From the NCBI GenBank assembly GCA_022563505.1, contig JADFNG010000005.1, positions 1-64,000 on the forward strand: a stretch of 64,000 nt of DNA. The letters are read 5' to 3'. The first letter of the stretch is position 1. Every line of letters begins with the position of its first letter. The translations under genes were made by a program, and so were the position numbers. Below the pieces are notes generated by a model, which saw nothing but the letters and a program-made list of their open reading frames with translations, ran no database searches and was not told the DNA's origin. Of this stretch, positions 44,727-55,168 are shown one piece after another. Source of the stretch: Pseudomonadota bacterium (GTDB taxonomy: Bacteria; Pseudomonadota; Gammaproteobacteria; Steroidobacterales; Woeseiaceae).

Positions 44727-44812
44727 TTAAGGAACCTCTGATCTATTCGTGAACTCGTATCTTGGGCCCAAAATATCCAGCTTCGGCGTTGCGAAGCTTC
44801 GCAATGACCATG
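44727..44812 (+). repeat. MITE-like repeat, copy A (half element, ~85 bp)
   Basis: TTAAGGAACCTCTGATCTATTCGTGAACTCGTATC...CCAGCTTCGGCGTTGCGAAGCTTCGCAATG matches the first half of copies B and C. Confidence 0.85.
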
Positions 44813-53556: not shown

Positions 53557-53725
53557 CTTAAGGAGCCTCTGATCTATTCGTGAACGCGTATCCTGGCTGT
53601 AAAATATCCAGCTTCGGCGTTGCGAATCTTCGCAATGGCCAGCCATTACGGGCGATCCGCGCCTTGAATCTGAATATTTTGACTCCCAATCTACTTCGCC
53701 CAGAATAAATCAGAGGTTCCTTAAG
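53557..53725 (+). repeat. MITE-like repeat, copy B (full length, ~169 bp)
   Basis: Termini CTTAAGGAGCCTCTGATCTATTC ... ATAAATCAGAGGTTCCTTAAG; internal TTGCGAA-tc-TTCGCAA hairpin; ~90% identical by eye to the reverse complement of copy C. Confidence 0.92.
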
Positions 53726-54152
53726 ACGGTTTTACAATCGCCAGCGCAATAATCACCAGCAGGAACAACACCGGAATTTCGTTGAACCAGCGCATGCCCC
53801 TGGTATTTTGCGTTTGGTATCCGTTTTGCAGCTGTTCGATCCAGAGCCAGCAGCGGAAATGGAAGACGCTGAGGCCAAACAGGAACAGAACTTTGACCTG
53901 AAACCAAGTTTGCTGCATCAATCCCGGATGCAGCCACAGCAGCACGAGACCGAAGACGAGCGCAAGGACGGCACCGAGCGTCATGATGGCGAACAGTCTT
54001 CGTTCCATGACTGTGAAACGACTGCGCCCCTGTTCATCGTCGGCCTGTGCATGGTAAATAAACAGTCGCGGCAGGTAGAACAGGCCGGCGAACCAGGTCA
54101 CCATGAAGGCCAGGTGCAGTGCCTTGATCCAAAGATACGCTGAATGCTGCAT
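53721..54152 (-). CDS. hemJ: HemJ-like protoporphyrinogen oxidase / CopD-type membrane protein
   Basis: YLWIKALHLAFMVTWFAGLFYLPRLFIYHA; four TMs; stop codon lies in the end of repeat B. Confidence 0.88.
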   Translation of the reverse strand: MQHSAYLWIKALHLAFMVTWFAGLFYLPRLFIYHAQADDEQGRSRFTVMERRLFAIMTLGAVLALVFGLVLLWLHPGLMQQTWFQVKVLFLFGLSVFHFRCWLWIEQLQNGYQTQNTRGMRWFNEIPVLFLLVIIALAIVKPS

Positions 54153-54272
54153 TCAGGCTTGCCTCCCAGGCTGTTGCCAGTCTGATATATAACCAATTTC
54201 GTGATCTGCTGCACTTCTGTTTGATCGTGTCGCCGCGTACCATACTGGATTCTCATGGTTTGAGGTACGACG

Positions 54273-54992
54273 GTGGTGGCAGCAAGAAATCCAGCAAACA
54301 TCAGCGGTATTCCGGTCTGGCTGCTTAGAGGCGGGATTCTGCTGGCGCTGGTCGCCGGTGGCTACCTGGTTTTCGAGTTGGGTCGAATTCAGGCGAGTTA
54401 CAGCATTGTCGACAGCTTTGTGGAACGGCAGGTCTTTCACGAGGAGATTACCGGTCTTGAGGCGCAAATTATCGGGCTTAATGAGGAAGTGACGCTGCTC
54501 GAAACCCATCGCGATATTGATCGGGAGGCCTACAGGGATGTCGAGGTCAACCTCACCGAATTGCAGCGAAAGATTCAGGAGCAGAGTGACGCGATCGCAT
54601 TTTATCGTGGCATCGTGTCACCGGCAGACGGCGGGCGTGGCCTGCGCGTGCAGAATCTCAAGCTGAAGAAGGGCAAAGAGGAGCGCTCGTATATTGTGCG
54701 ACTGGTGCTGATTCAAGTTATGCAGCATGATCGTTCCGTGAAGGGTAATGTGAACTTTAGTATTGAGGGTGAGCAGGACGGCGTTGCCACGACGTACACG
54801 TTGCAGCAGCTTGTTCCACCTGATGAGGACAGCAACTGGCCATTTTCTTTTCGATATTTTCAGGACTTCGATCGGAAGGTTGTGTTGCCGGACGGGTTTA
54901 CGCCGGAACGAATCAATATTGAAGTGAAATCGCGAACCAAGTCGATCGCCAGTATTGAGCAAAGTTTTCTTTGGCAGACAGGCCAAAGCTAA
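54273..54992 (+). CDS. DUF6776-like membrane-anchored coiled-coil protein
   Basis: N-terminal TM, coiled coil, conserved-looking C-terminal domain; precedes bactofilin. Family name recalled, not searched. Confidence 0.65.
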   Translation: MVAARNPANISGIPVWLLRGGILLALVAGGYLVFELGRIQASYSIVDSFVERQVFHEEITGLEAQIIGLNEEVTLLETHRDIDREAYRDVEVNLTELQRKIQEQSDAIAFYRGIVSPADGGRGLRVQNLKLKKGKEERSYIVRLVLIQVMQHDRSVKGNVNFSIEGEQDGVATTYTLQQLVPPDEDSNWPFSFRYFQDFDRKVVLPDGFTPERINIEVKSRTKSIASIEQSFLWQTGQS

Positions 54993-55153
54993 GGAACCTC
55001 TGATCCATTCGTGGACGAAGTAGATTGGGAGTCAAGATATTCAGATTCAAGGCGCGGATCGCCCGTAATGGCTAGCCATTGCGAAGATTCGCAACGCCGA
55101 AGCTGGATATTCTGCAGCCAGGATACGAGTTCACGAATGGATCAGAGGTTCCC
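54990..55153 (-). repeat. MITE-like repeat, copy C (full length, inverted relative to B)
   Basis: TAAGGAACCTCTGATCCATTCGTGGACGAAGTAGATTGGGAGTC...GAGTTCACGAATGGATCAGAGGTTCC. Confidence 0.92.
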
Positions 55154-55168
55154 TGAAGGAGGAATTGC

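Follow-up and report, generated by a model that had tools for sequence, protein, structure and literature searches.

We asked why two neighbouring genes of the window, a 64,000-nt stretch of a contig from a member of the Woeseiaceae, both end exactly where a copy of the same short repeat begins. These genes, hemJ and a DUF6776 gene, are transcribed outward, and for the repeats three questions arise: what they are, whether they provided the stop codons, and how they came to lie there.

Two copies of a foldback element flank hemJ and a DUF6776 gene

The original prediction of two near-identical, inverted elements around hemJ and the DUF6776 gene was confirmed. Copies B and C are inverted relative to each other and share ~93% identity, with lengths of 159 and 160 bp instead of the ~165 bp given at first (Table 1). 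Their terminal inverted repeats of 23-24 nt are 91-96% complementary and contain the core GGAACCTCTGATNNATTC. No coding capacity was found in B or C (159/160 bp), and in line with the earlier statement neither has a transposase coding region.

Each copy lies between 4-bp direct repeats (TTAA/TTAA for B, CTAA/CTGA for C), and the TAA stop codon of each gene is located inside the duplication next to it. The TTAA/TAA at the gene ends had been taken as the end of the element itself; it is the duplicated target and lies outside the element. A half copy of the same element is present elsewhere in the window, between two minus-strand genes and near a G+C-rich hairpin with a T-run.

Table 1. Elements, target duplications and adjoining genes in the window
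Feature	Position	Strand	Length	Remarks
Half copy of the B/C element	44731-44806	(-)		one terminal repeat retained, TTAA flank
Copy B, left target duplication	53558-53561			TTAA
MITE copy B	53562-53720	(-)	159 bp	foldback element, GGAACCTCTGATNNATTC family
Copy B, right target duplication	53721-53724			TTAA; 53721-53723 on the minus strand is the hemJ TAA stop
hemJ-like gene	53721-54152	(-)		UPF0093, PF03653, E 4e-43; TIGR00701, 124.9 bits, slightly under the cut-off
DUF6776 gene	54273-54992	(+)		PF20567, E 3e-43
Copy C, left target duplication	54989-54992			CTAA; 54990-54992 is the DUF6776 gene TAA stop
MITE copy C	54993-55152	(+)	160 bp
Copy C, right target duplication	55153-55156			CTGA, one change from CTAA

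The stop codons are older than the insertions

The elements had been proposed to supply the stop codons of both genes, a proposal that sister strains ending at the same codons without the repeat would contradict. In the sister genome G001, the DUF6776 orthologue (84% identical) ends with FLWQTGQS* at the same codon, there a TAG, without an element, and the spacing between this gene and the following bactofilin gene is 13 nt compared to 177 nt in the window. The hemJ gene of G001 also stops at the same codon, followed by a different, perfect hairpin of 35 nt (L121, about 910-946). Because this hairpin has IS-like ends, the G001 hemJ locus is not a clean empty site. At its start (CTAG, then CAGCCTGTTGAAAAAC), the hairpin is similar to two other IS elements, L294 and L295, in their ends and CTAG flanks; it seems that elements of two unrelated families inserted at one hemJ stop codon, one in the window genome and one in G001. 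In further relatives, too, hemJ terminates at the equivalent KPF codon, and the sequence that follows is a different one. A third case is an insertion at a gene on contig C27 of the window's own genome (G000), where the G001 gene again ends at the same codon without the element. Since the stop codon is at the same place in orthologues that lack this MITE, the stops pre-existed and were then duplicated.

The repeats belong to a dispersed family

A BLAST search of the own genome, a draft assembly of 2.6 Mb in 135 contigs that is 82.5% complete, gave 29 matches, many of them full length, with 90-94% identity; this number includes fragments and the near-palindrome matching its own reverse strand. 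The 18-bp end pattern occurred 46 times at ≤2 mismatches, and the same pattern reversed, used as a control, had 0 matches in this genome. The repeats thus exceed chance by far. When ends were paired, about 16 two-ended elements were accepted plus fragments, in forms of 159 bp, 58 bp (five copies) and 42 bp. This is an undercount, because several contigs end within a copy.

Copies also occur in the genus; family members were present in 10 of the 107 genomes of the bacterial family and, at the level of the order, in 16 of the 296 genomes sampled. A form of 206-207 bp was found in G054, G057 and G060; where it is 206 bp long (L299 2036-2241 and L309 2036-2241), ~48 additional internal bases are located near the hairpin tip. 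A search of plasmids gave no match, nor did a search of viral contigs with a core pattern.

One insertion, at the stop codon of rpoN, is common to G000 and G001. Its TTAG duplications are identical and its flanks alignable. It is shared by descent and predates the split of the two species. Some copies are thus old, while the copy at the DUF6776 gene is absent from G001. In G060, the rpoN-hpf-ptsN cluster was hit independently, between hpf and ptsN. Elements were seen in this cluster in three genomes (L081 2270-2428, L095 2057-2215 and L313 2006-2212).

Among 54 elements with paired ends, identical 4-bp duplications were retained in 16, and 45 had a YTAR tetramer on one or both sides. Together with the multiple copies, these duplications support the earlier description of the repeats as MITE-like. 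Decay of the duplications was biased in the flanks of copies from G000, G001, G004, G054, G057, G060 and others: YTAG had changed to YCAG at 21 of 55 ends and YTAA to YCAA at 2 of 31 (Fisher P 0.002). The bias resembles very-short-patch repair of CTAGG, and a wider sample was without it. Such repair was rejected as an explanation for the decay from CTAG to CCAG because 13 genomes yielded no Vsr gene.

Relatives carry an IS5-family element with the same ends

We scanned loci carrying the MITE ends for complete elements. In relatives, we found IS elements of ~1190 bp (1188-1195 bp) that contain a single long frame for the transposase (320 aa in L142). The 18-bp ends of copy B are identical to those of the IS copies in L142 and L151, and other IS ends are identical or nearly so. 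The IS copies in L142 and L274 are flanked by CTAG on both sides. The L142 transposase belongs to the IS5 family (NF033581, 357 bits against a cut-off of 140) and contains DUF772 and DDE_Tnp_1. The same type of transposase is present in G003, G049, G053, G054 and G059, and at 51% identity in G028; G054 carries both the IS and the MITE. Beyond the terminal 20-26 bp, the element has no long match to the IS copies.

Neither the own assembly (82.5% complete) nor G001 (98%) yielded an L142-type transposase, and the mover is for this reason inferred from relatives. In the own genome, searches with DUF772 and with the cognate transposase itself gave no match, and a search with DDE_Tnp_1 gave two matches.

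The repeats have matching ends, a YTAR duplication, a short length without a transposase gene, a dispersed distribution with element-free sites in relatives, and an autonomous partner in relatives, as is characteristic of IS5-group MITEs. From these sequence comparisons, we consider it very probable (roughly 0.93) that they are non-autonomous IS5-group MITEs moved in trans by an IS5-family transposase whose own elements have the same 18-bp ends.

Insertions are in excess at stop codons

To score positions, genes were called with a home-made, simple coding-score caller, sites were rebuilt without the element, and each target tetramer was scored as the stop of a called gene or not. Among 42 non-coding insertions with a YTAR target (unclustered), 20 were at stop codons, compared to 18% of comparable YTAR sites and to 9.3 insertions expected after correction for the tetramer. 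Measured against non-coding YTAR sites near a gene end, 48% of the insertions in this unclustered set were at stops compared to 25% of the sites. Once insertions whose flanks were similar had been merged, 18 of the 39 independent ones were at stops, where 8.8 were expected (P about 0.0005). Two subset tests, both post hoc, pointed in the same direction: the 159-bp form alone had 9 of 23 at stops (4.8 expected, P 0.03), and the own genome alone had 5 of 14 (2.1 expected, P 0.04), a modest excess. In the wider sample, 10.8% of ends were at stops compared to 2.7%, a rough value from a gene model pooled across phyla that serves as support only. Inside genes, we found 3 of 45 insertions, compared to 64% of YTAR sites.

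The proposed preference for stop-codon TAA sites therefore holds as an excess at TAA and TAG stops, and the random placement relative to stops that would have spoken against it was not what the 18 of 39 insertions gave. The copies have no constant polarity. B and C show the same end to their own genes, as was originally noted, whereas the 21 stop-codon insertions across relatives are split 10 to 11. Some copies are located between genes or upstream of them, in a variety of arrangements that include divergent intergenic regions.

The hairpin is conserved along the whole element

Each copy folds as a whole into one long hairpin (z about -11). In an alignment of 29 copies, 95.3% of pair cells were standard pairs and paired changes were seen at 15 of 49 pairs; when the partners were slid by 1-3 columns as a control, 35-45% pairs remained. 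The interior without the terminal repeats behaved alike, with 95.8% standard pairs and paired changes at 9 of 31. The foldback is thus maintained, either by selection or by palindrome correction.

Transcribed into mRNA, each copy would fold into a long hairpin at the 3′ end, which might influence transcript ends or stability, and a terminator or 3′-UTR role, as originally suggested, is possible. Neither element has the form of an intrinsic terminator, a G+C-rich hairpin followed by a T-run: no U-tract or T-run follows the hairpin of B or C, and no terminator-like site was called at either. An Rfam search gave no match up to E = 1.

Copies at stops might still be retained by selection as functional 3′-UTR parts, with the hairpin ending or protecting the transcript. 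The conserved pairing, in the interior as in the whole element, would fit this explanation, as would the retention of the rpoN-stop copy since before the species split and the other perfect hairpin directly 3′ of the hemJ stop in G001. Template-switching correction of palindromes can yield paired changes without selection, however, and neither the lack of a U-tract, nor the random gene-facing end, nor the copies upstream of or between genes and in divergent intergenic regions would be expected of such parts, so that we regard this explanation as rather unlikely. Still less likely, in our estimate, is the further idea of a widespread MITE family in which selection keeps the full-length hairpin and the element acts as a portable 3′-UTR module; a transposase that targets YTAR would deliver it to stop codons, where it would add a structure to the transcript end with the protein unchanged.

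Target choice and loss of harmful insertions as the likeliest source of the excess

Stop codons could also be overrepresented if the transposase or a partner actively targeted gene 3′ ends or stop contexts beyond YTAR. The roughly twofold excess persists after tetramer correction and is also seen in the unclustered comparison with non-coding sites adjoining a gene end, as active targeting would predict. An equal excess could arise from selection against insertions in promoters or leaders, though, and the independent events are few; we consider active targeting improbable. A classification of the repeats as REP/BIME-like palindromes or as ordinary duplicated terminators, and not as transposable elements, as hairpin form and gene-end location might suggest, is refuted by the precise 4-bp target duplications, by the terminal repeats in common with full IS5-family elements, and by the fixed 159-bp length with precise ends, and has hardly any probability left.

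Our preferred reading, a MITE moved by an IS5-family transposase, would account for the stop codons as follows. The transposase of IS5-family elements with matching ends would act on the MITE in trans, cutting YTAR and duplicating it. As YTAR is a pyrimidine followed by TAA or TAG, a gene ending in YTAR could be hit exactly at its stop, and the duplication would leave this stop intact. Insertions in coding regions would mostly be lost by selection, and survivors would gather at gene ends. The old ends of the genes are preserved because the insertion site contains the stop codon and is copied. The likeliest source of the excess at stops is the target sequence combined with the loss of harmful insertions.

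Relation to described elements

The nearest described element is MITEPsy1 of Pseudomonas syringae, which is 100 nt long, has 18-nt terminal repeats (GGAAGGTCTGAAAAAGCC / GTATCCTCTGAAAAAGCC), lacks a transposase, duplicates 4 nt of CTAG or YTAA, is attributed to the IS5-like parent ISPsy2 and has been demonstrated to move in vivo (PMC3189936). Our element is likewise short and without a transposase, with a 4-bp duplication, an IS5-type parent and a TCTGA core in the terminal repeats. Compared by length and ends, it differs in being 159 nt long and in its terminal repeats outside the TCTGA core. Membership in MITEPsy1 was rejected on these two grounds, and the element represents a new IS5-group MITE family.

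With the IS5 family (IS5 group; NF033581) it has in common the YTAR target and the 18-bp ends, which are those of the complete relatives, but it lacks a transposase gene, and the foldback sequence in its interior is unrelated. IS5 of E. coli duplicates Py-T-A-Pu, mostly CTAG (PMC5493358; PMC10359306); the likeness to our element rests on this 4-bp target duplication, and unlike our element E. coli IS5 is autonomous. The link to stop codons is a consequence of this already known target. In a partial literature search, we found no published description of a link between the IS5-type target and stop codons.

These data offer a clear and testable explanation for the accumulation of IS5-type elements at gene ends: a stop codon is part of the tetramer that serves as target, and duplicating this tetramer leaves the protein unchanged. 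The excess at gene ends is unusually clear for a bacterial mobile element of this kind, and the hairpin conserved over the full length raises the question whether such elements shape the 3′ ends of transcripts.
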